From Halopelagius longus (lineage in GTDB: Archaea > Halobacteriota > Halobacteria > Halobacteriales > Haloferacaceae): a stretch of DNA of 64,000 bases. The first letter of the stretch is position 1. Each line of letters opens with the position of its first letter. The notes below the pieces were generated by a model, which saw nothing but the letters and a program-made list of their open reading frames with translations, was not told where the DNA came from and made no database searches. Location: contig NZ_FNKQ01000005.1 in NCBI RefSeq assembly GCF_900100875.1, forward strand, positions 62,001 through 126,000, given 5' to 3'. Positions 7,465-63,399 of the stretch are shown here, in pieces. The translations under genes were made by a program, and so were the position numbers.

Positions 7465-8403
7465 ATGCCACTGTCAGAGGCGAACCTACGGCGACGCCTG
7501 CGCGGCGTCGCAGCCGGGCTGCTGACGCCGTTCGACGACGAGTTACGCGTCGTCCACCACAAGCTGGCGGAGAACGCGCGGACGCTCTCCGAGGAGGGGA
7601 TAGAGACGTTCCTCGCGGCCGCGAACATCAGCGAGTACCACTCCCTCTCGCACCGGGAACGCATCGAGGTGACGGAAACGAGCGTCGATGCGGTTCCGTC
7701 CGACGCCTGCGTCCTCGCGGGCGTCGGCGGGTCCACCGCGAACGCTCGGGAACTCATCGAGGCGTACGACAGAATCGGCGTGGACGGGATGATGATAATG
7801 CCGCCCGACCACTCCTACGTCCACGAACGCGGGCTCATCCGCTACTACGAGAAACTCGACGAAGTCACCGACACACCGCTCGTTCCCTACGTCAAAGGGT
7901 TCGACCCGTCCGTCGCGTACCTCCGCGACCTCACTCGCGTCGACGGCGTGGTCGGCATCAAGTACGCCTTGAAGGACCCGGTGAAACTGGGCGCCGGGGT
8001 CGAGGCCGGCGCGGACGACGTGGTGTGGGTCGACGGCCTCGCGGAACCGTACGCCGTCGCGTTTTGGAACGAGGGCATCGAGGGATTCTCCGCCGGCGTC
8101 AGCAACTTCCGACCGGAGGTCGGACTCGCACTGTACGACGCCCTCGAAGCCGAAGACTGGGAACGCGCCCGGAAGATCCGGAACATCGCGCTTCCCTTCC
8201 AGAACTTCCGCGACTCCACCGGCGAAGACAACGAAATTCCGGGTGCGATAAGCGTCTCCGCCGTGAAGAAGGGCCTCGAACTCGCCGGCCTCCACGGGGG
8301 GCCGGTCAGGGAACCGATCCGGTCGCTCTCGCCCGAAGACGAACGCCGCGCCGAGCAACTCTACGCCAACCTCGACGACGATATCGAGCGAGTACTCGAC
8401 TAA
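7465..8403 (+). CDS. DapA-superfamily aldolase/dehydratase acting on a keto-deoxy sugar acid (paralogue 1)
   Basis: 312 residues, start MPLSEANLRRRLRGVAAGLL set by the TATA box. The family blocks are GLLTPFDDE, the ANISEYHSLSHRER loop (in place of T-T-G-E), PLVPYVKGFD with Tyr142, and the Schiff-base lysine Lys166 in GVVGIKYALKD, followed by GFSAGVSNFRPE. Such enzymes act as 2-keto-3-deoxygluconate aldolase, 5-keto-4-deoxyglucarate dehydratase or relatives. The neighbouring uronate-dehydrogenase-like gene favours an acid derived from galacturonate or rhamnose. It is closely related along its whole length, and identical in size, to the gene at 62461-63399. Confidence 0.85.
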   Translation: MPLSEANLRRRLRGVAAGLLTPFDDELRVVHHKLAENARTLSEEGIETFLAAANISEYHSLSHRERIEVTETSVDAVPSDACVLAGVGGSTANARELIEAYDRIGVDGMMIMPPDHSYVHERGLIRYYEKLDEVTDTPLVPYVKGFDPSVAYLRDLTRVDGVVGIKYALKDPVKLGAGVEAGADDVVWVDGLAEPYAVAFWNEGIEGFSAGVSNFRPEVGLALYDALEAEDWERARKIRNIALPFQNFRDSTGEDNEIPGAISVSAVKKGLELAGLHGGPVREPIRSLSPEDERRAEQLYANLDDDIERVLD

Positions 8404-8628
8404 CGCCGTCCGACCGCCGCGTCGCCGTCCGGTTCTCCGTCCCGAGCAGTCCCTTCGTCGCATCTCCCACCGCGTCGCGGTACCGACCTCGTGTCCTCGG
8501 CTTTCACCATCAGAGCGCCGTCGCCTCCGAAACACTGCGAGCAGACCCATTCTCGACAGCCGATCCGTTCGCGGTTGGGGAACGGAATCAGGGGGGTACT
8601 CCCGGCCGGGCCGAAACCCCGCCCGACT

Positions 8629-8645
8629 GTTCCCGAGAGGGGAAA
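8629..8645. promoter_or_regulatory. 17-bp palindromic operator candidate, copy 1 (GTTCCCG-N3-CGGGAAC)
   Basis: GTTCCCGAGAGGGGAAA, the least symmetric copy: the last base and the first base of the right arm differ from the perfect palindrome. It lies downstream of DapA paralogue 1, 267 bp before the esterase start. Confidence 0.5.
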
Positions 8646-8771
8646 TTTTCACAAAGGCTCGTGTCTGCCGACTATCGGACGTTCAACCGATTTTCGTCGC
8701 TGATTCGTCGTTCTGAGACGGTTCTACCGGCGCGAAAATCCCCCTCGAACGGACGTACGCCGGGTGATGTG

Positions 8772-8791
8772 TTACAGATCTACACCCGTAA
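8772..8791. promoter_or_regulatory. 20-bp palindromic operator candidate, copy 2
   Basis: TTACAGATCTACACCCGTAA, with the conserved TTACA, central TA and GTAA. It lies 121 bp upstream of the SGNH esterase start. Confidence 0.6.
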
Positions 8792-8911
8792 CGGTTCGGC
8801 GGCGGGGAACCGAGGTACGGCGGCCGCGGCCGAGTGCGCCGGGCGATTCGTCCGACCGCGCCTCGGCGTCGGGGACACCGATAAGTAGGTGTGCCGCGCA
8901 GGAGAGCGTAC

Positions 8912-9943
8912 ATGCGACGAGACGGTATCCAGTTTCACAACGTTCGAGCGCTTCGAGACGTCGAAGGCGACGGCCTGCGACTCCAGCGAGTGCCCGAGGA
9001 CGTTCGGACTCGACTGAACGAGGGCGCACGGACCCGGATGTGCCATCCCGCCGGCGTCGAACTCCGGTTCGTTCCCGACGGACCCGTGCGAGTGACGCTC
9101 TCCTCTCGCGTTCGCGACAGCGTCGTTCGACCGTTCTGGGGCGACTTTCAGGCCGCCGGCGAGGAAGTCGTCGTCGGGGAGGAACCCCGGACCATCGAGC
9201 TCGAACGCCCCGAGAAACTCACCGACCTGCGCCCCTCCGTTCGAGATGGCCTCCGGTACGACCCGCACCTCTGTCGCCTCGTCCTCCCGGGGGAACACCG
9301 GGGCGGACACGTCCGCTTCCACGGCGTCGAGGGAGAGGTACGCCCTCCCCGGGAGTCGGAGGTGCCCTCGCTACGGTACCTCGCCTACGGCACTTCGATA
9401 ACGGAGGGCGAAGCGCCCGGTAGCGAGACGCTCACGTACGTCAATCAGACGGCGCGGCGACTCGGCGCGGACCCGATAAATCTCGGCTCCTGCGGCACCG
9501 CCTACTGCGACGAGGCGATGGCCGAACACATCGCGGGCCGGGACGACTGGGACGTGGCGACGCTCTCGCTCTCGGTGAACATGGTCGGGACGTTCTCGGT
9601 CGAAACGTTCCGCGAACGGGCGGCCGCGATGGTCGACACCGTCGCGGGGGCACACCCCGACCGGCCCGTCGCCTGCATCACCATCTTCCCGAACGCCCGC
9701 GACTACCGCGTCGACCACGAGGAGGGCGAGGAGTGCGAACGCTTCCGAGAGGCGCTCCGGTCCGTCGTCGCCGGCTCCGACCGCGAGAACGTCCACCTCG
9801 TCGAGGGTCCGGACGTGCTTCCGACGGCCGCCGGACTGACGACGGACCTCGTCCACCCCGGCGACGACGCCATGGTGCGGATGGGCGAGAACCTCGCACG
9901 CGAGTTGAAGCCCCTCCTGCCGGCGGTGGAGTCGTCGGCCTGA
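8912..9943 (+). CDS. SGNH/GDSL-type hydrolase, possible carbohydrate esterase
   Basis: 343 residues from the ATG at 8912 (MRRDGIQFHNVRAL); a GTG 21 bp upstream is less likely because the TATA-like box sits 28 bp before the ATG. Residues 1-150 form a beta-rich N-terminal module. The catalytic half has AYGTSITEG (Ser162, block I), NLGSCGTAYCDEAM (block II region), SLSVNMVG (block III, Asn223) and DLVHPGDDAM (Asp312 and His315). This arrangement is seen in carbohydrate acetylesterases, which remove acetyl groups from xylan or rhamnogalacturonan. No signal peptide is visible, so it probably acts on imported oligosaccharides. The upstream region holds both recurring operator-like palindromes. Confidence 0.82.
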   Translation: MRRDGIQFHNVRALRDVEGDGLRLQRVPEDVRTRLNEGARTRMCHPAGVELRFVPDGPVRVTLSSRVRDSVVRPFWGDFQAAGEEVVVGEEPRTIELERPEKLTDLRPSVRDGLRYDPHLCRLVLPGEHRGGHVRFHGVEGEVRPPRESEVPSLRYLAYGTSITEGEAPGSETLTYVNQTARRLGADPINLGSCGTAYCDEAMAEHIAGRDDWDVATLSLSVNMVGTFSVETFRERAAAMVDTVAGAHPDRPVACITIFPNARDYRVDHEEGEECERFREALRSVVAGSDRENVHLVEGPDVLPTAAGLTTDLVHPGDDAMVRMGENLARELKPLLPAVESSA

Positions 9944-11705: not shown

Positions 11706-12476
11706 TCACGAGAACTTCGTGTTCAGTTCGATGACGTTGGCCGCCCGGCGGACGTGATCCGAGAGTTCCCCGTGGAGTTGGTCCTTCGTGAAACGACTCG
11801 ACGGACCGGTGATGCTGACCGCGCCGAGGATCGCCTCGTCGTTCTTGACCGGCGCGGAGACGCAGCGAAGGCCTTCGATGTTCTCCTCGTCGTCGATGCC
11901 GAACCCCCGTTCGCGGATGGCTTCGAGGTTCTCGTACAGTTCCTCTTCGCTCGTCACCGTGTTGGCGGTCATCGGTTCGAACGACATCGACCGGACAATC
12001 TCCTCGGTGCGTTCCGGCGGGAGGTACGCGAGGATGGTCTTCCCTAACGACGTGGAGTACATGGGCGCCTGCGTCCCCACCCGGGAGCGGGTTTCGACGG
12101 CGTACTCGCCGGCGGCCTTGTAGAGGTACGACACCTGTCCGTGCTCCTCGATGCCGAACTGAACGATTTCGCCCGTCTCCTCGGCCAGGGAATCGACCTC
12201 CTCTCGGATGACGTCGTAGTTGCCGACCTGTTCTCTGACGTGCGTCGCCATGTCGAGAAAGCGGAGGCTGAGGCGGTAGCCGTCCGTCTCTCGGACGAGT
12301 ATCTTTCGCTCCTCCAGCGTTCGGAGGTGACTGTGGACGGTGCTCTTGGAGTGGCCGAGTTCGTCCGCGATTTCGGTCACCCCGATTCGACCCCGTTCCT
12401 GCAGGAGGTCGATTATATTGAACGCTATCTTTACCGAACGGATGGTGCGCCCCCGGCGTTCGTTTGCGTTTGCCAT
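11706..12476 (-). CDS. IclR-family transcriptional regulator (intact)
   Basis: 256 residues, start MANANERRGRTIRSV at 12476. The N-terminal winged HTH spans about residues 10-75 (SVKIAFNIIDLLQERGRIGVTEIADELGHSKSTVHSHLRTLEER, quoted in parts). The effector domain follows, with GQVSYLYKAAG, TSLGKTILAYLPPER, and the C-terminal GLRCVSAPVKNDEAILGAVS and ITGPSSRFT. IclR proteins in haloarchaea regulate sugar-acid pathways, as repressors or activators. The gene diverges from the FAH-family gene. A 17-bp palindrome at 12510-12526 abuts its TATA box, which suggests autoregulation or regulation by a partner. Confidence 0.92.
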   Translation of the reverse strand: MANANERRGRTIRSVKIAFNIIDLLQERGRIGVTEIADELGHSKSTVHSHLRTLEERKILVRETDGYRLSLRFLDMATHVREQVGNYDVIREEVDSLAEETGEIVQFGIEEHGQVSYLYKAAGEYAVETRSRVGTQAPMYSTSLGKTILAYLPPERTEEIVRSMSFEPMTANTVTSEEELYENLEAIRERGFGIDDEENIEGLRCVSAPVKNDEAILGAVSITGPSSRFTKDQLHGELSDHVRRAANVIELNTKFS

Positions 12477-12500
12477 ACGACAACCGACGGCACGACCACC

Positions 12501-12510
12501 CATAAATTTG
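12501..12510 (-). promoter_or_regulatory. TATA box of the IclR gene
   Basis: On the minus strand CAAATTTATG, about 29 bp before the ATG at 12476. The adjoining 17-bp palindrome would cover the BRE position. Confidence 0.65.
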
Positions 12511-12526
12511 TTCCCGAGCGGGGAAC
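12510..12526. promoter_or_regulatory. 17-bp palindromic operator candidate, copy 3, abutting the IclR promoter
   Basis: GTTCCCGAGCGGGGAAC, with arms GTTCCC/GGGAAC. It touches the TATA box of the IclR gene and lies about 110 bp upstream of the divergent FAH-family gene. A protein bound here would block the general factor TFB. Confidence 0.7.
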
Positions 12527-34347: not shown

Positions 34348-34925
34348 AGCGTCGAGCCGTCCTCGCCACGGGCGCGCTATCTCTGGTAGGACTCGCAGGC
34401 TGCCTCGGCGATACGGAGTACCGCGTGACGGATGCGACCGTGGAGTCTTCCCCCGGTCCGCTTGCGCTGTCGGTACGCATCACTACTCCGGGGGCCGTCA
34501 TCGAGCATCCGGCCGATCTGGAACTTACGCTCACGAACCAGGGCGAGCGACCGGTCCAGATCCGGAGCTACGGCGTTTGGCCGTTCGGTGCTCTCTCGCT
34601 CACTACTTCGTCCACATCGGACGAGAATCGGCTCGACGTCCATCTCTACTCGCCGGCCTACGAGGAAAGCGATTCCGTCGAGGTCGGGCCGGGTCGTGCG
34701 TCGATGCGGGTCGACGGCGAGCCACTGACTCGAACGCTCGACGCAGGTGCGTCTGCGACCACGCTGTATCACCTGTACGGAGACGATCTCTCACGTCCGG
34801 GAACCTACTACGTAGTACAGACGTTCGACGGGAACGAGTCGGAGTACTCCACCGGGAACGAGTGGACGACGTTCGACCCGCGCGTCGCTGTAACCATCGA
34901 AGAAGTGAGCCAACTCCCGCTGTAA
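34344..34925 (+). CDS. Lipoprotein linked to ABC system 2
   Basis: 193 residues, GTG start overlapping the ATPase stop. The N-terminus KRRAVLATGALSLVGLAGC combines a twin-arginine-like pair with a lipobox (LAGC). The mature domain is beta-rich and begins DTEYRVTDATVESSPG. It contains LELTLTNQGERPVQIRSYG, a pattern of small Ig-like or transglutaminase-associated domains. It is probably a membrane-anchored partner or cargo of the exporter. No catalytic residues are apparent. Confidence 0.8.
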   Translation: MKRRAVLATGALSLVGLAGCLGDTEYRVTDATVESSPGPLALSVRITTPGAVIEHPADLELTLTNQGERPVQIRSYGVWPFGALSLTTSSTSDENRLDVHLYSPAYEESDSVEVGPGRASMRVDGEPLTRTLDAGASATTLYHLYGDDLSRPGTYYVVQTFDGNESEYSTGNEWTTFDPRVAVTIEEVSQLPL

Positions 34926-35258
34926 CGGTCGATCGATCCGTACGTACTCGATCCGGAGGGCGGTTGGCCTCCTCGTGCAGGTCGGATCGACTGGTGAGTA
35001 CGACCGGTCACCCCTCGTCATCGCGAATGCTGTTCTGACGATGCTGAAGAAGCAGACAGAGGTTGGAGGGGCTCGTCTCTCGTTTGATGTCCTCCCGATG
35101 AGCGGCGGGTCTGCCCGGACACTCGCAGTTCAGCAGAAACATTAGTGTTTTTAGAATAAACCGCCATCGAGACGAGGAATCGAAGTGGTCATTCTTCCTC
35201 AGTTCGGTTCCTGCTACACATCAGAACTACTCTCTGCCAGGTGGAGTCTCATCTCTCC
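34926..35258. other. 333-bp intergenic region with an orphan open frame
   Basis: A plus-strand frame is open to the stop at 35143 and reads protein-like near its end (SPLVIANAVLTMLKKQ, then GGARLSFDVLPMSGGSA). It has no upstream start or ribosome signal and overlaps the previous stop region, so it could be a gene tail or chance. GC content falls from about 35140 onward. Confidence 0.35.
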
Positions 35259-35504
35259 TCACTCGAAATAGACGAAGAGAGCGATAAACGGGACTGGTAA
35301 GAGAGTCCCTCCAACAACCGTAGCGAGGACGGAAACGAAACTTAGAGACCCTATACCAGATGTGAACAAGGGTGTAAGAAATAGATACGTTAGTATAATT
35401 CCGATCGGTGGGAGCAGGGCTATTATACACCCAGTGAGGATCGGATGGTTGAGTTCCTCCTTGCCGAAGAACCCGTTGATGGTAGATCTCAAATTATCTG
35501 ACAT
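35259..35504 (-). CDS. Small membrane protein (81 aa) of unknown function
   Basis: The frame starting at MSDNLRSTINGFFGKEEL contains two strong helices: ILTGCIIALLPPIGIILTYLF and SFVSVLATVVGGTLLPVPFIALFVYF. A longer frame to 35651 adds a charged leader that does not look coding. Base composition is lower in GC than in the sugar loci. It sits with two other small membrane or lipoprotein genes on the same strand and may be recently acquired. Confidence 0.5.
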   Translation of the reverse strand: MSDNLRSTINGFFGKEELNHPILTGCIIALLPPIGIILTYLFLTPLFTSGIGSLSFVSVLATVVGGTLLPVPFIALFVYFE

Positions 35505-35791
35505 GACCGCGAGTTCTGTCTGTTGGCATATTAGGTTTACTCGGGTCTCACGTCCACTCCTCTCCTCACCGCTCACACGCAATTGCGTCAAGGCAATCGA
35601 TAGCGGATTTCTGCGCGGCGGCGGGCTTTCTCGAGTTAGTTCGTTAGACATCTCGTCGAGTACCTCGCGTTGCTCCGCGCCAGCGGTATCGGCACCGCTT
35701 CTCCTTACTCAACCCGCTGACTTCGAGAACGAACTCGACATTCAGCAGAGGTGCATATACATACGACTCCTCTACAAAAGTTACTTTCTGA

Positions 35792-36067
35792 CTACGTTTG
35801 ACCGTTGACTGTTCTCCAAAGAATCGCCGTGCAACCGCTCAATACGATTACCATCCCGATAGAAAACAGAACTACTCCGATGAGAATCGGAGGAAGCACG
35901 ACTTCGGGCGACATCCGCCCAAATAGCACGGCTGGGTCAAATAGTACTGACAATGGTTGCCAGCTGATGCCGAGTATAATTCCACCACCAATTACTACGA
36001 AGTAGAGTTTGAGGTACTCGCTGCTGAGAGCCCGACGGAGGGAGTCGGTTGCGGAATAGGGAGCCAT
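35792..36067 (-). CDS. Small membrane protein (91 aa) of unknown function
   Basis: MAPYSATDSLRRALSSEY is followed by LKLYFVVIGGGIILGISW, a short loop, and PPILIGVVLFSIGMVIVLSG. These are two transmembrane helices with the loop outside. No family is recognised. It shares strand and lower GC content with its neighbours at 35259 and 36231. Confidence 0.5.
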   Translation of the reverse strand: MAPYSATDSLRRALSSEYLKLYFVVIGGGIILGISWQPLSVLFDPAVLFGRMSPEVVLPPILIGVVLFSIGMVIVLSGCTAILWRTVNGQT

Positions 36068-36230
36068 ACGAATGGATCGAACTGACTGATTTAGATATTT
36101 CCGTTTTGGATGACAAATATAGATTCACCGCCTGACCGGTAGCGACTGGCAAAGAACAACGTATCTTTCGACAGAGCCGAAGTGTAAGGGATAGAGCGCA
36201 GGTTCTCTATCGGACTTGGCTAATTATCGA

Positions 36231-36701
36231 CTATGGAAGCGTCCCGTCGTCCGCGTAGCAATTGAACCGGATGCGTACGGCCGCAATTTGGGCATCGTCC
36301 GGATCGACTAATGCGACCGTGTATTCGCCGTGAACTGGCGGGCGACCGAGAGGCACTGCGTACAGTTCGCCTTCTCCAGAACCAAACACCGAGTAGTCCT
36401 CGGAATCGACACCGCTCATATCACGATTGCTCAACAGCGGAACCGAGGAAACGAGGTTGCCGTCGCTGTCGCGTATCCTGATCGCGTGATAGGCGTCCTC
36501 AGAAACGGCTTGGGTCGAAACCAGTACTCCAAGAGCCACTCGTTCGTTACCTTCTATCGGTGCGACCCGGCGGAGATGTTGGGAATCGCCTCCCACTCCT
36601 CGACTGCCGCAACGAGCGATGGGGTCCTCGTTACCGAGACAGCCAGCAGTCATACCCACGCTACCGACTACTCCTGCGAGGAGTTCGCGTCTGGAGGGCA
36701 T
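36231..36701 (-). CDS. Lipoprotein of unknown function
   Basis: 156 residues starting MPSRRELLAGVVGSVGM at 36701. The twin-arginine motif SRRELLAG and lipobox MTAGC indicate Tat-dependent export and lipid anchoring. The mature part is beta-rich (NERVALGVLVSTQAV, YHAIRIRDSDGNLVSSVPL, GEYTVALVDPDDAQIAAVRI) and ends in a Cys-containing RFNCYADDG, which with the early CGSRG Cys could form a disulfide. No enzymatic motif is recognised. Confidence 0.7.
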   Translation of the reverse strand: MPSRRELLAGVVGSVGMTAGCLGNEDPIARCGSRGVGGDSQHLRRVAPIEGNERVALGVLVSTQAVSEDAYHAIRIRDSDGNLVSSVPLLSNRDMSGVDSEDYSVFGSGEGELYAVPLGRPPVHGEYTVALVDPDDAQIAAVRIRFNCYADDGTLP

Positions 36702-36759
36702 CGTTCGTGATATCAAATCGAGGTAGTTTAACGATGTGGATAGCGCCACGTACGCACCC

Positions 36760-37002
36760 CTAGTGGTCAGAGACTCCTTCTACGCTGTAAATAAGCCGCG
36801 CAGCAAATTCATCCTCCGAGGTTTGGTAAACGGCCGCCTCGATATTTTGTATAGCGCGATGTGGTTCATTATTGTGTTTCGGTGCGCGGAAAGCGTGATA
36901 CCTGAGGCATGAGTCCGTAGAGGAGGTATCCGGAACGAGGAGTCCCACTTTCGCGTAGGGCGATAGAATCGAACGGGATGCCGGTGCTTTCGTTTCGGCC
37001 AC
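36760..37002 (-). CDS. Doubtful 80-aa reading frame
   Basis: An ATG frame (MAETKAPASRSILSPYAKVG ... DEFAARLIYSVEGVSDH). Its composition is not clearly haloarchaeal and it has no hydrophobic segment or motif. It may be a remnant or chance frame in DNA of lowered GC content. Confidence 0.25.
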   Translation of the reverse strand: MAETKAPASRSILSPYAKVGLLVPDTSSTDSCLRYHAFRAPKHNNEPHRAIQNIEAAVYQTSEDEFAARLIYSVEGVSDH

Positions 37003-37301
37003 TAAATCGGCGGCACAGACACCGATATACCTATTTCAACGCAGAAGCGCAGCAATTCGATCCTTCGTCGGATATCAGTTGCCGCCCACCGTCGAACTCC
37101 GTCGGAACCGGTTGACAGCCCACCGTCTGAACTCCAGTTCCGAGACCGATATTCGCGATGTTGGTTGACCCTCGTTGACGACGGGTCGGTTACAGCGCTG
37201 TGCGGACGCCTCAAGCTATAGCGGAGAGAAAAATGAGACCCCGGAGAGAGCCACTTCACGAATGCGATAGGAGTGCCACAACTAGAACCGAATCCGAGGC
37301 A

Positions 37302-37321
37302 TTACACTCCTATTATCGTAA
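37302..37321. promoter_or_regulatory. 20-bp palindromic operator candidate, copy 5
   Basis: TTACACTCCTATTATCGTAA, preserving TTACA, the central TA and GTAA. No gene start lies within 600 bp. The nearest regulator is the IclR gene ending at 37699. Confidence 0.5.
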
Positions 37322-37698
37322 TAGACGGCCTATCCGGAGTAACGAGACTGACGCTAACACGCCCTAATCGAACGTGACAGACATCGCTACCCTCCGTTTC
37401 CTTTCGCTCCGTGGCGATTCGTCCAATATAACTCACCAATTTCGTCCTTCGTCTCACTTTCACTCCGGTTACTGATTCAGAATTCTGATTGTAGCTGATA
37501 TCTGGAATTCATCTCTTTCATCTATTGTGCTCCCTCGTTCACTTATACTAAATCCAATTCAGTATCTGCGAATACTATCGGAGTGTTAATACTGGAGAAT
37601 TACGCAAATGACGTCGATAGATAATTACAATATGATCATTCAGTATCGCTGGACGAGAGGCTGCCAAAGTGAAACGGCTATTGGCTAATAAACGACGA

Positions 37699-38466
37699 TT
37701 ACGTGTAGGTGATGTTGAGTTCGATGACGTTGGCGACGCTCTGGAGTTTCGCGGGCAGTTCCTCCCGGAAGCGCTCGTCCTGAAACCGACTGGTCGGTCC
37801 GGAGACGCTGATCGCTCCTTCTACCTCGTCGTTGTTGTTGATTATCGGGACGGCTACGCAACGGAGTCCTTTGACGCGCGCCTCGTCGTCGAGCGCGTAC
37901 CCGTTCTCGCGGACGCGCTCTAACTCCTCGAACAGTTCGTTTCGGTCCGTAATGGTTCGGTCGGTCGAGGCGGGCATCCCGTGACGGTCGAGTATCCGGT
38001 CCACCCGGTCGCGGGGGAGGTGGGCGAGTATCGCGTTTCCGAGGCCGGTGTTGTGGAGGTACACCCGTTGTCCGATGTAGGAGTCGGTCTTCACCGCGTC
38101 GACCCCGTGCGCTCGGTGGAGGTAGACGCCCATCCCGTGCTCTTCGACCAGCAGGTTCGCCAGTTCCCCCGTCTCCTCGGCGAGCGCCGTGACCTCCTCC
38201 TTTGCGATGTCGTATATCTGCTTCTTCCGCCGGGCGTGGCCCCCGAGGTCGAGGAGTCGGAGTCCGACCCGATAGGTGTTACCGGATTTCACGACGTATC
38301 CGTCCCGTTCGAGCGTACTGAGGTAGTTGTGGACGCTACTCTTCGAGAGGTCGACGGCGTCCGTCAACTCGGTCACCGTCGCCTCGTTTCGGCGCTTCAA
38401 CTCTTCGAGAATTCTGAACGTCGTCCGCGCGGTTTTGACCTCGTTGGGGTTTTCCTGGTCGACCAT
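37699..38466 (-). CDS. IclR-family transcriptional regulator (second intact copy)
   Basis: 255 residues from MVDQENPNEVKTARTTFRI at 38466. This start was chosen because the box AGATTTATC at 38491-38499 lies 29 bp upstream; the ATG at 38490 would start inside that box. Winged HTH: RILEELKRRNEATVTELTDA, then VDLSKSSVHNYLSTLERDGYV. Effector domain: GMGVYLHRAHGVDAV, LHNTGLGNAILAHLP, GLRCVAVPIINNNDEVEGA and ISVSGPTSRFQDERF. It presumably controls the second sugar block; the nearest downstream candidates are the beta-helix and ABC genes. Its C-terminal block is the closest match in the window to the tail kept in the deleted IclR gene at 20846. Confidence 0.92.
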   Translation of the reverse strand: MVDQENPNEVKTARTTFRILEELKRRNEATVTELTDAVDLSKSSVHNYLSTLERDGYVVKSGNTYRVGLRLLDLGGHARRKKQIYDIAKEEVTALAEETGELANLLVEEHGMGVYLHRAHGVDAVKTDSYIGQRVYLHNTGLGNAILAHLPRDRVDRILDRHGMPASTDRTITDRNELFEELERVRENGYALDDEARVKGLRCVAVPIINNNDEVEGAISVSGPTSRFQDERFREELPAKLQSVANVIELNITYT

Positions 38467-58826: not shown

Positions 58827-59759
58827 ATGCGAGAGAGCTACAAGCAGGTGAAAGATGCGATCAAAGGTGGAGTCATCCCGGCGACCGTCACCCCACTCAC
58901 ACCCGACCTCGAAGTCGCGGAAGACGACCTCTACGGGCACATCCGTAACCTCACCTCGACGGACGGTATCGTCGCCACCGTCGCGAATGCCCACTCGGGC
59001 GAGTGTAAGATGTCTCCGCCGGAGGACAAGGAGCGAGTCATCGAAATCCATCAGGAGGCCTCCGAGGACGCGATGGTGTTCTCGGGCATCCACGGCGAGA
59101 GCACCGCTATGGCCGTCGAAGAGGCGAGGCGGGCCGAAGCGGCCGGCGCCGACGCCCTCATGCCCGTCCCCATCGACGTCTACAGCCACGGCGACCCCGA
59201 CATAATCGTCGAGTACTACAGCGACATCGCCGACGCCGTGGACATCCCGCTCATCGCCTTCCAGTTCGGCAACTTCGGCGACATCGCCCAACCGGTCAGC
59301 GCCTACGTCGAACTCTGCAAGCTAGACGGCGTCGTCGCCCTCAAGAACGCCACCTTCGACGTCACTCGCTACGAGGAGACCGTCCGCGCCCTCGAACCCT
59401 ACCGCGACGAGTTCACCCTCATGACCGGCGAGGACGTGTTCCTCTATCACTCCTACCTCCTCGGGGCCGAAACCGCCCTCATCTCCTACGCCAACCTCGT
59501 CCCCGACATGCACGTCGAGAAACTCCGCGCCGTCCGGGAAGGCGACATAGAACGCGCGAGGGAACTCCGCTCCGAGATGCTCCCGCTGACGAACTTCCTG
59601 TTCGGAGAACCCGTCGGCCGCAACCGCAACCGCATCAAAGCCGCCCTCCAGATGCAGGGCGTCTTCGAACACGACACCGTCCGTCCGCCCGCCCAGACTC
59701 TCGACCCGGAGGAACGCGACCGTCTCCGCGAAATCCTCCAGGACATGGACCGCCTGTAA
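58827..59759 (+). CDS. DapA-superfamily enzyme with substituted active-site tyrosine (paralogue 3)
   Basis: 310 residues, with a TATTATG box about 31 bp upstream. Family features: GGVIPATVTPLTPD, the ANAHSGECKMSP loop, PLIAFQFGNFG, the presumed Schiff-base lysine Lys173 in GVVALKNATFD, and TGEDVFLYHSYLLGAETAL. At the site where DapA/KDG aldolases have a Tyr in a Y-N-x-P-like motif, this protein has Phe-Gln-Phe (145-147), so its chemistry may differ. It is only distantly related to the two other copies. Possible roles are dihydrodipicolinate synthase-like aldolase or a sugar-acid dehydratase. Confidence 0.82.
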   Translation: MRESYKQVKDAIKGGVIPATVTPLTPDLEVAEDDLYGHIRNLTSTDGIVATVANAHSGECKMSPPEDKERVIEIHQEASEDAMVFSGIHGESTAMAVEEARRAEAAGADALMPVPIDVYSHGDPDIIVEYYSDIADAVDIPLIAFQFGNFGDIAQPVSAYVELCKLDGVVALKNATFDVTRYEETVRALEPYRDEFTLMTGEDVFLYHSYLLGAETALISYANLVPDMHVEKLRAVREGDIERARELRSEMLPLTNFLFGEPVGRNRNRIKAALQMQGVFEHDTVRPPAQTLDPEERDRLREILQDMDRL

Positions 59760-59766
59760 GCGCCGA

Positions 59767-59792
59767 GAGACGCCGCCGGCAACCGGCGTCTC
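59767..59792 (+). terminator. Hairpin terminator candidate after DapA paralogue 3
   Basis: GAGACGCCG and CGGCGTCTC form a perfect 9-bp stem around CCGGCAAC, starting 7 bp after the stop codon. A pyrimidine-rich stretch (CGCTCTTCTCG) follows, but no long U run. Confidence 0.6.
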
Positions 59793-59953
59793 CGCTCTTC
59801 TCGACCGTTCGACTGCGCTCTCCGTCCGAGCGTCGGCCGAATCTCCGACCCGCACCGGCGTTCGAGCAACGCTTCGAGATGCTTCGTTTCGTGCCGGAAC
59901 GCCCCCCTCGCCGCCTTTCCGGTTCGGAGACGACGTTTCGACGCTCCTTTTCC

Positions 59954-59970
59954 GTTCCCGTCTCGGGAAC
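59954..59970. promoter_or_regulatory. 17-bp palindromic operator candidate, copy 4
   Basis: GTTCCCGTCTCGGGAAC, perfect 7-bp arms with a 3-nt centre. Confidence 0.6.
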
Positions 59971-60075
59971 TCACTTCGTTCGTCCGTTTCAGCGACCGAG
60001 CGGGCCAAAAACGACCGCTCACTCGACGAATCGAACGCTCGGAGGTACGGCCCGAAAAGAGGTGTCGAACGCGCG

Positions 60076-60095
60076 TTACAGTCCTAACGGCGTAA
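60076..60095. promoter_or_regulatory. 20-bp palindromic operator candidate, copy 6
   Basis: TTACAGTCCTAACGGCGTAA, with TTACA, central TA and GTAA conserved. Confidence 0.55.
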
Positions 60096-60161
60096 CGGAT
60101 ATCGAGTCACGGTCACAGAGAGAGAAAATTTCCAACTGGCGGGGACGAAAGCAGATTCGTA

Positions 60162-60178
60162 GTTCCCGACAGAGGAAC
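60162..60178. promoter_or_regulatory. 17-bp palindromic operator candidate, copy 5
   Basis: GTTCCCGACAGAGGAAC; the outer 5-bp arms GTTCC/GGAAC remain paired. Confidence 0.5.
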
Positions 60179-60290
60179 GTTTTTGGCCCGGAAGAAGGGT
60201 CGATTCCGGAGGAGATCCTCGACTCGCCACCGTCGGGTCGGCGTCAGAACGGACGAACGGGGTCTCTCACTACAGGTCTGCGTGGGTTCC

Positions 60291-60307
60291 GTTCCCGTGT
60301 GCGGAAC
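60291..60307. promoter_or_regulatory. 17-bp palindromic operator candidate, copy 6
   Basis: GTTCCCGTGTGCGGAAC; outer arms GTTCC/GGAAC are paired, with the sixth pair mismatched. Confidence 0.5.
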
Positions 60308-60399
60308 GAACGCCGTCGCCTCCTCGAACGAGTCACAGGTCTCCGAGACCGTTCGATACGTCCGCCGAGGCGGCTATCGGGCGGAAACTCCGCCGGTTC

Positions 60400-62346
60400 T
60401 TATCGGGTGGCGTCCCAGGGCGGAGCGTAACTCGGGTCGTTCGCGAAGCGGTCCAACTCCGCCGTCACGGAGATTCGACGCCCGCTGGGGAGGTACACCC
60501 GCATCGCGTTCGACTCGTCGGATCCGTCGGCACTTCCCGCGTTCGGGGCGCTCTCCGCGTCTTCGATGCGCCGGCGGTCGCAGTCGGTTTCGACCGACGC
60601 GAATCGGTGTTCGCCGTACGCGCCCGCCTGTACGACCACCTCCTCGTTCGTCCCCCCCGCGTTGACGAGGGTCAGTTCGACTCCGTCCCGCGATACGTCC
60701 TCCACGAGTGCGGCGACGCCCTCGGGGAGTCCCGGCCGTTCTCTGCGGGCGTCGAAGTGCCGAACCTGCGCCATGACGAGGCCGCCGTAGTAGACGGGTT
60801 GCGGCGCACCCATCGTTAGTTGGAGGAACGCCTTGTGGAAGACGGGGTTCCGGTCGCGGAGGTAGTCCTCGTCGACCGTCGTGGGTTCGTTCCCTTCCGC
60901 CTCCATGAGGTCCAGTCGCTCGTGGACGTGTTCGCGGGTCGCTTCGAGAATCCGGTCGGGGTAGTCGGGGAACTCGCCGTCGAGGTACGCCAGCCACGCG
61001 TACTCGTGGCCGTCGCCGTGCTTCGTGGAGGCACGGGGGTCGACCCGCTTCCAGTCGCGCTTCCCCCAGTCGCGGAGTCGGCGGACCCGCGCTCTGTCCT
61101 CGTCGCTCATGGACATGTACCAGAGGTGGACGGCGTAGGGGTCGTCCCTGTGCGGCCGAAACTCGTACCAGCCGTCGCGCCAGAGAACTTCGCCGTCGTC
61201 CTCCGTGAGGACGCCCGAGGCGGCGTAGTGGTAGTCGCCCTCGCCGCCGTACTTGTGCGGGATGTAGAGCGTGCTGTGGACGTCGTCCTCGCTCACCTCG
61301 ATTCCGTTCTCCACGAGGACGTCCAGTTGCGACCGGGGGAACTCGAGGTACTCCCGGTCGCCCTCCAGCAGAACCGCGTTCTCGGCGGCGACGGTGGGGC
61401 CGATACCGACGTAGTGCCACCCGCCCCACGACCACCCGTAGTAGCCGCCGTACCACGACCCGTCGGTGTACTCGCCTATCTCGCCGGACCGGCCGACGTT
61501 GTCGGGGATTATCCCGCCGTTCTCCGCCGTTCGCTCCCGCCACGCCGCGAGGTAGTCCGTGACCCACTCCCGGTACCTGTCGTCGCCGGTGTGGAGGTAG
61601 GCGTTCGTCATCAGACTGGTGACGTTGAGGTTGAGCGGGATGTCCCCCTTCGCGCACCGGTCGTTCAACACCTCGAACAGTCGCTCCTCGTTGTCCGGGT
61701 CCAGAAGGTCCGCCGCCTCGTCGAACTCCAGGTCCCGCCACGGAAGTCCGTGTCGCGCCCACCGATAGTCCGCGCCGTACGGGTGGTGCTCGTACGCGGA
61801 GAAATCGCAGTAGTCGGGGCCCATGCTTCCGTTCATCGGGCCGCGAACGAGTCGCTTCTCGCCGTCGTAGTTGTTCGTATCGGACTCCTCGAAATAGAGG
61901 CCCGCGAACCGTTCGGCCCGGTCTACGACCGTCTCGTCGTCGGGGGCGGCCAGACCCATGTTGTACGTGTAGAGGTTCCCCTCGCCCATGTGGAACCAGT
62001 CTCGGCACTGCTCGAACTCGTCTACGACCATCGGGTGACCGAACGGCGTACTCGTCTCCGCGCCGCGTTCGAGTGCCGCCTCGTACAGGCGTCGGGCGTG
62101 GTCGAGGAGTCGTTCGTCGCCGCCCATCGCGTACAGCAACGGCCAGTTGTAGAACCCCTCGACGACGTCGTCGAAGCCGTCGACGCCGACGTGGTCCTTC
62201 GGCGGCCAGAACGGTTCGTACTCGGGACCGGTGTAGTCCGCGACGAACCGGTCTGCGACGTCCGCCATCAGGTCGAACAACTCCCGTTGTCGGCGCGCCC
62301 ACGACGGTACGCTCGACGCGTCGACGGTCGCTTCTACTTCGAACAT
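60400..62346 (-). CDS. 648-aa protein of unrecognised family, probable polysaccharide-active (alpha/alpha) barrel
   Basis: No signal peptide; it starts MFEVEATVDASSVPSWARRQ. The first about 500 residues show repeating helical pairs with aromatic and glycine-rich turns: GFYNWPLLYAMGGDERLLDHA; WFHMGEGNLYTYNMGLA; LTSLMTNAY-like VTSLMTNAYLHTGDDRYREWV; and GSWYGGYYGWSWGGWHYVG. This pattern is seen in glycoside hydrolases and lyases with (alpha/alpha)6 toroids. The last 120 residues are beta-rich (GVELTLVNAGGTNEEVVVQAG, then MRVYLPSGRRISVTAELD). It is transcribed after DapA paralogue 2 on the same strand. I cannot assign a CAZy family. Intracellular action on a uronide or rhamnoside oligomer is an inference from neighbours. 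Confidence 0.7.
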   Translation of the reverse strand: MFEVEATVDASSVPSWARRQRELFDLMADVADRFVADYTGPEYEPFWPPKDHVGVDGFDDVVEGFYNWPLLYAMGGDERLLDHARRLYEAALERGAETSTPFGHPMVVDEFEQCRDWFHMGEGNLYTYNMGLAAPDDETVVDRAERFAGLYFEESDTNNYDGEKRLVRGPMNGSMGPDYCDFSAYEHHPYGADYRWARHGLPWRDLEFDEAADLLDPDNEERLFEVLNDRCAKGDIPLNLNVTSLMTNAYLHTGDDRYREWVTDYLAAWRERTAENGGIIPDNVGRSGEIGEYTDGSWYGGYYGWSWGGWHYVGIGPTVAAENAVLLEGDREYLEFPRSQLDVLVENGIEVSEDDVHSTLYIPHKYGGEGDYHYAASGVLTEDDGEVLWRDGWYEFRPHRDDPYAVHLWYMSMSDEDRARVRRLRDWGKRDWKRVDPRASTKHGDGHEYAWLAYLDGEFPDYPDRILEATREHVHERLDLMEAEGNEPTTVDEDYLRDRNPVFHKAFLQLTMGAPQPVYYGGLVMAQVRHFDARRERPGLPEGVAALVEDVSRDGVELTLVNAGGTNEEVVVQAGAYGEHRFASVETDCDRRRIEDAESAPNAGSADGSDESNAMRVYLPSGRRISVTAELDRFANDPSYAPPWDATR

Positions 62347-62460: not shown

Positions 62461-63399
62461 TCAGGCGATGACACGTTCGATGTCGTCGTCGAGTTGCTCG
62501 TAGAGTTCCTCGGCGCGGCGTTCGTCCGCGGGCGAGAGCGGTTCGATGGGGTCGCGAACGTCGCCGCCGTGGAGGCCGGCGAGTTCGAGTCCCTTCTTCA
62601 CGGCGGAGACGCTTATCGCGCCCTCGATGGTGTTGTTCTCCCCGGTTTCGTCGCGGAAGTTCTGATAGGGGAGGCTGATGTTGCGGATTCGGCGGGCGCG
62701 CTCCCACTCCCCCGATTCGAGGGCGTCGTACAGTTCGAGTCCGACCTCCGGCCGGAAGTTGCTGACGCCGGCGGAGAACCCCTCGATACCCTCGTTCCAA
62801 AACGAGACGGCGAACGGTTCCGCGAGGCCGTTCATCCACACCACGTCGTCGGGGGAGGAACTGGTCGCCGCGCCGAGTTTCACCGCGTCCTCGATGGCGT
62901 ACTTGACGCCGACGACGCCGTCGACGTCCGCGAGGTTGCGGAGGTACGAGACGGACGGGTCGAACCCCTTGACGTACGGGACGAGGGGCGTCTCCGTCGC
63001 GGCGTCGAGTTTCTCGTAGTAGCGGATGAGTCCGCGTTCGTGGATGTAGGTGTGGTCCGGCGGCATCACCATCATCGCGTCCACGCCGATTCTGTCGTAC
63101 GCTCGGATAAGCTCCTGTGCGTCCGGCGTGCTCCCGCCGACGCCGGCGAGGACGCAGGCGTCCGAGGGAAGCGCGTCGACGGCCGTCTCCGTCACGTCTA
63201 CCCGCTCGGTCTGAGAGAGCGAGTGGTACTCGCTGATGTTCGCGGACGCGAGGAACGTCCGGATTCCGGCGTCGTAAAGCGCGTTCGCGTTCGCTTCCAA
63301 TTTAGGGTGTTCGACGAGGAGTTCGTCATCGAACGGGGTGAGGAGTCCGGCAGCGACGCCACGCAGGTGCTGACGCACACCGCTCTTGGAAAGTGGCAT
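62461..63399 (-). CDS. DapA-superfamily aldolase/dehydratase (paralogue 2, close to paralogue 1)
   Basis: 312 residues, identical in length to the gene at 7465 and with the same motifs: GVAAGLLTPFDDE, ASANISEYHSLSQTERV, PLVPYVKGFD with Tyr142, and the Schiff-base Lys166 in GVVGVKYAIED. The residues after that (GAATSSSPDDVVWMNGLAEP) differ most from paralogue 1. A box reading ATTTTATG on the minus strand (63421-63430) lies about 27 bp before the start, so it is leaderless like its paralogue. The 648-aa gene follows after about 115 bp. It may serve the same keto-deoxy acid under different control, or a stereoisomer. Confidence 0.86.
   Translation of the reverse strand: MPLSKSGVRQHLRGVAAGLLTPFDDELLVEHPKLEANANALYDAGIRTFLASANISEYHSLSQTERVDVTETAVDALPSDACVLAGVGGSTPDAQELIRAYDRIGVDAMMVMPPDHTYIHERGLIRYYEKLDAATETPLVPYVKGFDPSVSYLRNLADVDGVVGVKYAIEDAVKLGAATSSSPDDVVWMNGLAEPFAVSFWNEGIEGFSAGVSNFRPEVGLELYDALESGEWERARRIRNISLPYQNFRDETGENNTIEGAISVSAVKKGLELAGLHGGDVRDPIEPLSPADERRAEELYEQLDDDIERVIA

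Follow-up and report, generated by a model that had tools for sequence, protein, structure and literature searches.

A palindromic operator array between convergent genes of Halopelagius longus is probably an orphaned iclR/thuA control region

Introduction

Operators of group-1 IclR regulators have been described for bacteria, with the consensus GKTYCRYW3-4RYGRAMC (PMC8222616). In haloarchaea, the IclR regulators known so far activate sugar catabolism (PMC11519228). Here we report on a 64,000-nucleotide stretch of Halopelagius longus DNA (contig NZ_FNKQ01000005.1, positions 62,001 to 126,000), which we call the window and whose numbering we use unless a contig is given. A gap at 59760-60399 carries a cluster of palindromes between dapA2, a gene of the dihydrodipicolinate synthase (DHDPS) family (58827-59759, plus strand), and a gene for a 648-aa protein of unrecognised family (60400-62346, minus strand). 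The two genes are convergent. An earlier note on this DNA had offered an unrecognised small RNA or protein, a relic of a duplicated promoter, or decoy or architectural sites as explanations. We think that the gap is probably a control region of iclR and thuA that has been orphaned, with its operators intact and without a recognisable core promoter, which would explain a puzzling operator cluster as the remains of a control region.

Results

Palindromic sites in the gap

Three exact palindromes of the form GTTCCN7GGAAC (B17) and one of the form TTACN5TAN5GTAA (A20) are present in the gap; all sites are given without strand. Reading on the minus strand, the array starts with B17 site 1, GTTCCCGTGTGCGGAAC (60291-60307), whose counterpart in relatives is directly upstream of iclR. 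B17 site 2, GTTCCCGACAGAGGAAC (60162-60178), follows at 129 bp, centre to centre, and the A20 site, TTACAGTCCTAACGGCGTAA (60076-60095), at a further 84.5 bp. With a flanking G and C this A20 site extends to 22 bp at 60075-60096 (GTTAC-N12-GTAAC). B17 site 3, GTTCCCGTCTCGGGAAC (59954-59970), is the last one and matches a site that in most of the relatives' loci lies 83-87 bp upstream of the thuA start. We write the array as B-129-B-84.5-A-123.5-B, where the numbers are distances between site centres and, in the arrays below, a lower-case b is a site with one mismatch.

Markov simulations of the gap gave a chance expectation of 0.003 B17 and 0.00005-0.0001 A20 sites, and an exact B17 pair 115-145 bp apart occurs in 6 of 392 genomes of the order, once in each. 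Because the sites are far above the chance expectation and such a pair is rare in the order, we conclude that they are real. This much of the earlier note checked out directly: four palindromic sites lie in the gap, between two genes that end toward each other.

Other repeats in the gap include two perfect inverted repeats, of 13 bp (60001-60013/60178-60190) and 12 bp (59977-59988/60248-60259). We considered them as the ends of an inserted element and rejected this, because they are not collinear and the array spacing is ancestral. Directly after the dapA2 stop codon there is a 9-bp hairpin (59767-59792, plus strand) that looks like a terminator and may act as one.

The array after the 648-aa gene in relatives

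The 648-aa gene is conserved in haloarchaeal pectin clusters and served as the synteny anchor for gathering loci from relatives. Six Haloferax loci show B-127-b-82.5 to 83.5-A-124.5 to 125.5-B after this gene and then a 240-aa gene, thuA; the orthologue of thuA in Haladaptatus carries a ThuA-domain annotation. Halogeometricum pallidum has B-130-B-84.5-A-125.5-b at this place, again followed by thuA. The window array occupies the corresponding position after the 648-aa gene, is within 1-3 bp of the Haloferax and Halogeometricum spacing and has the same B-B-A-B order. Outside the sites there is little sequence similarity between the gap and these arrays. The earlier note had proposed comparing the gap with related strains, and it is in Haloferax and Halogeometricum that the same site types, order and spacing after the same gene turned up.

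In four genomes (Halogeometricum pallidum, a related second genome of that genus group, Haladaptatus halobius and 'Candidatus Halobonum tyrrellensis') the array is separated from the 648-aa gene by an IclR-family gene, which points back at the 648-aa gene. In several genera iclR diverges from thuA across the array. The thuA loci linked to the 648-aa gene have a TTTATM box 30 bp before the thuA start. In Haloferax the first two B sites persist without iclR, so these sites can serve thuA.

The 648-aa protein itself has no Pfam, NCBIfam or PDB match and is 62-84% identical across haloarchaeal pectin clusters, which makes it a candidate new enzyme family.

Missing genes at the locus

Neither iclR nor thuA flanks the gap as one or both do in the relatives' control region. 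We did not find thuA in the window, and tblastn searches of the gap with thuA and iclR as queries returned no significant match, thus no remnant. By analogy with relatives, the thuA TATA box and start codon would be expected at 59857-59953 on the minus strand, and both are missing there. A TATA box about 30 bp before a target start, as in relatives, was likewise not found in the gap.

The genome does retain a different divergent iclR-thuA pair elsewhere on this replicon, at a distance of about 25 kb (C5:146271-148184, with thuA at C5:147465). In trees, neither the C5 thuA nor the C5 iclR groups with the copies linked to the 648-aa gene, which form supported clades (support 96/91 and 98/94); the deeper placement of the C5 genes is weak. 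Since the C5 copies are outside the linked clades, the linked iclR/thuA copy has most likely been lost in this genome and the C5 pair would have a separate history. We found no genome with the same dapA2/648-aa junction; as a result the loss cannot be dated, and an assembly join at the gap is possible.

None of the 40 core bases in the four sites has changed. Under neutral drift this would have a probability of 0.13 if there were 0.05 changes per site and of 0.015 if there were 0.1, which points either to a recent loss or to a continuing hold of selection on the sites.

The neighbouring dapA2

In other genomes dapA2 orthologues mostly have an array upstream, and in most loci the arrays follow a recurrent grammar that puts the last B site 83-114 bp ahead of the start. 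In several genomes iclR is followed by dapA2 and thuA, and the array separates iclR from dapA2. The region upstream of the window dapA2 has no site that matches B17 or A20 within the tolerance that we applied. We considered whether dapA2 had simply been flipped away from an array of its own, and do not favour this: the spacing of the window array is of the thuA type and not of the dapA2 type, so a replacement or insertion is likelier than a flip of dapA2.

The pectin cluster has three DHDPS-family paralogues, at 7480-8403, 58827-59759 and 62461-63366 (the starts of the first and third are approximate). The second of them, dapA2, scores below the curated cut-offs of every named NCBIfam family.

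B17 and an IclR-family regulator

The window contains an IclR-family gene, iclR1 (11706-12503, minus strand), with a B17 site at 12510-12526 that ends 7 bp from the annotated start. A B17 lies 22-27 bp upstream of the projected iclR1 start in 20 of 23 orthologue rows (>60% identity) and in 0 of 7 more distant IclR genes, with a few loci counted twice. B17 thus lies upstream of its presumed cognate regulator gene, as group-1 operators do. The outer half-sites GTTCC/GGAAC are inverted over 17 bp and agree with the bacterial group-1 GKTYC/GRAMC over 17-18 bp, but the inner bases match neither the RY dinucleotides nor the W3-4 centre (for example GTTCC-CG-TCT-CG-GGAAC). From the position of the sites and the half-sites we infer that the iclR1 product binds B17. 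This would pair a haloarchaeal IclR subgroup with a 17-bp operator in a way that can be tested.

Translation of iclR1 may begin nine codons further in than annotated; the TTTATG at the annotated start could then be the TATA box of the later start.

The comparison region at 8404-8911

The earlier note had likened the gap to the region after DapA paralogue 1 (8404-8911). A gene does start there: this region leads up to a GDSL hydrolase gene (8912-9943, plus strand), which is the likely target of its sites. These are B17-like sites with one mismatch at 8567-8583 and 8629-8645, an A20 site at 8772-8791 and a third B17-like site with one mismatch at 8794-8810, whose centre is about 110 bp upstream of the GDSL start. 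The array reads b-62-b-144.5-A-20.5-b; its counterpart in the second genome of the genus reads b-64-b-146.5-A-20.5-b and conserves the single mismatch in each of the three B sites. This is likely an ordinary promoter array for the GDSL gene. The likeness therefore stands as far as the kinds of site and, if one region is inverted, their order; their resemblance comes from arrays that are built of the same types of site.

A decamer had also been named as an ingredient shared by both regions, and this did not hold up. It lies at 60124-60133 in the gap (GAAAATTTCC, plus strand) and at 8641-8650, where GGAAATTTTC overlaps the second B17-like site. The exact decamer GAAAATTTCC/GGAAATTTTC occurs 3 times in the 3.87 Mb genome, with about 2 predicted from base composition, and was not found at the matching place in any relative compared. 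In the second genome of the genus the B site that overlaps GGAAATTTTC is kept and the decamer is missing. We rejected GGAAATTTTC as a functional element because it is not conserved and occurs at chance frequency, and GAAAATTTCC in the gap is probably a coincidence. Of the earlier note's observation as a whole, the sites and their order remain; the decamer as an element does not, and 8404-8911 is no geneless gap.

Discussion

We base our reading of the gap on the sites, their spacing, the synteny, the missing genes and the missing thuA TATA box, all of which we observed. The protein-DNA pairing, activation, silence and order of events are what we would add to them. The ancestral unit, which relatives still have, would be the 648-aa gene, iclR pointing back at it, the B-B-A-B array and thuA reading away. 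Regulators of the IclR type would bind B17. Judging by position, the regulator would control its own gene through the site adjoining iclR, and activation would go through the last B site, which lies some 50-60 bp upstream of the thuA TATA box. Halopelagius longus would have lost iclR, thuA and the thuA TATA box together from the locus, and dapA2 now ends facing the array. Since the operators are intact, the regulator probably still binds them; without a core promoter, little or no transcript would result. Of the three explanations in the earlier note, the relic of a duplicated promoter is thus the best supported, with the change that the gap would be the relic of an iclR/thuA region and not a duplicate of 8404-8911.

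There are other ways to account for the gap. It could still be a functional control region whose product, be it a small RNA, a small protein or an antisense RNA, has escaped recognition; an example would be a transcript running leftwards into the dapA2 3' end. In favour of this, the operators are all intact at ancestral spacing, and the polarity of the array points to the minus strand, leftwards. Against it, we found no TATA-like hexamer (at most 1 mismatch) on either strand of the gap where 4.4 were expected; the chance of finding none is 0.06, which is weak alone. We found no promoter that a small-RNA gene could call its own, no stable structure and no known family: an Rfam search of the gap gave no match even at E 1, and its RNA folds no more strongly than shuffles (z -0.97 and -0.28). 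The open frames encode basic, arginine-rich peptides unlike haloarchaeal proteins, and none was picked as coding. We took the gap's DNA matches elsewhere in the family, 24-71 bp long and in differing frames, as chance. A productive transcript from the gap is unlikely, and so is this explanation. The earlier note's small RNA or protein is not supported, with no TATA-like hexamer, Rfam match, unusual folding or thuA/iclR remnant. A fresh duplicate of the 8404-8911 array or of the genome's own iclR-thuA array would have the same kinds of site in the same order, as observed. We consider it highly improbable, because we found no sequence similarity outside the sites and the spacing differs: A-20.5-b at 8404-8911 and A-24.5-b in the own iclR-thuA array compared with A-123.5-B in the gap, with which the Haloferax array at the same place agrees.

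The remaining alternatives give the sites a role of their own. As decoys or a store, they would titrate an IclR-type regulator or an A20-binding protein. High-quality sites with no recognisable promoter would fit this, and selection would account for their intactness; however, one more A20 adds little to the genome's 40, and selection for titration alone would not preserve the spacing, so we find it quite unlikely. An architectural role, with the replicon organised by the array or just its A20 site, or with either of them looping to remote promoters (that of dapA3, for example), draws on the distribution of A20, a 20-bp palindrome nearly confined to secondary replicons that was exposed here as a by-product. 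Of the 40 A20 sites, 39 are on four secondary contigs (C4-C7) that make up 23% of the genome, and the reversed A20 pattern has none in the genome. The window has A20 at 1220, 8772, 19414, 22811, 37302 and 60076. None of the own A20 sites that we examined falls within a called gene, and roughly one third have no adjoining gene start as far as a rough gene call shows; several sit where two genes converge or at a distance from any start. In Halopiger, the convergent gap after the same 648-aa gene contains an A20. On the other hand, A20 holds a fixed place in the relatives' promoter arrays, its counts of 0 to 94 in 20 other genomes fit a catabolic regulon equally well, and the gene calls around the own sites are rough. 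We regard an architectural role as improbable. The broader idea that selection has kept the array despite the lost genes, to titrate a regulator or organise the replicon, with A20 a genome-wide element of secondary replicons and not a simple operator, seems doubtful to us. A stretch of about 2.7 kb elsewhere in the window (34925-37699), with lower G+C and few convincing genes, also contains one A20 site.

Comparison with known systems

Like group-1 IclR operators, B17 is found upstream of an iclR gene and of catabolic genes. It differs from these bacterial operators in that three sites share one array at fixed spacing. The haloarchaeal IclR activators XacR, RhcR, GacR and MscR (PMC11519228) likewise belong to plant-sugar clusters and have sites upstream of catabolic genes, whereas the array in the window gap has no target gene, and activation here is presumed. 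The closest system is the divergent iclR/thuA control region of the Haloferax, Halogeometricum and Haladaptatus pectin clusters. The gap differs from it in having no iclR, thuA or thuA TATA box and in having dapA2 converge on it, and shares with it the site types, their order, their spacing and the neighbouring gene.
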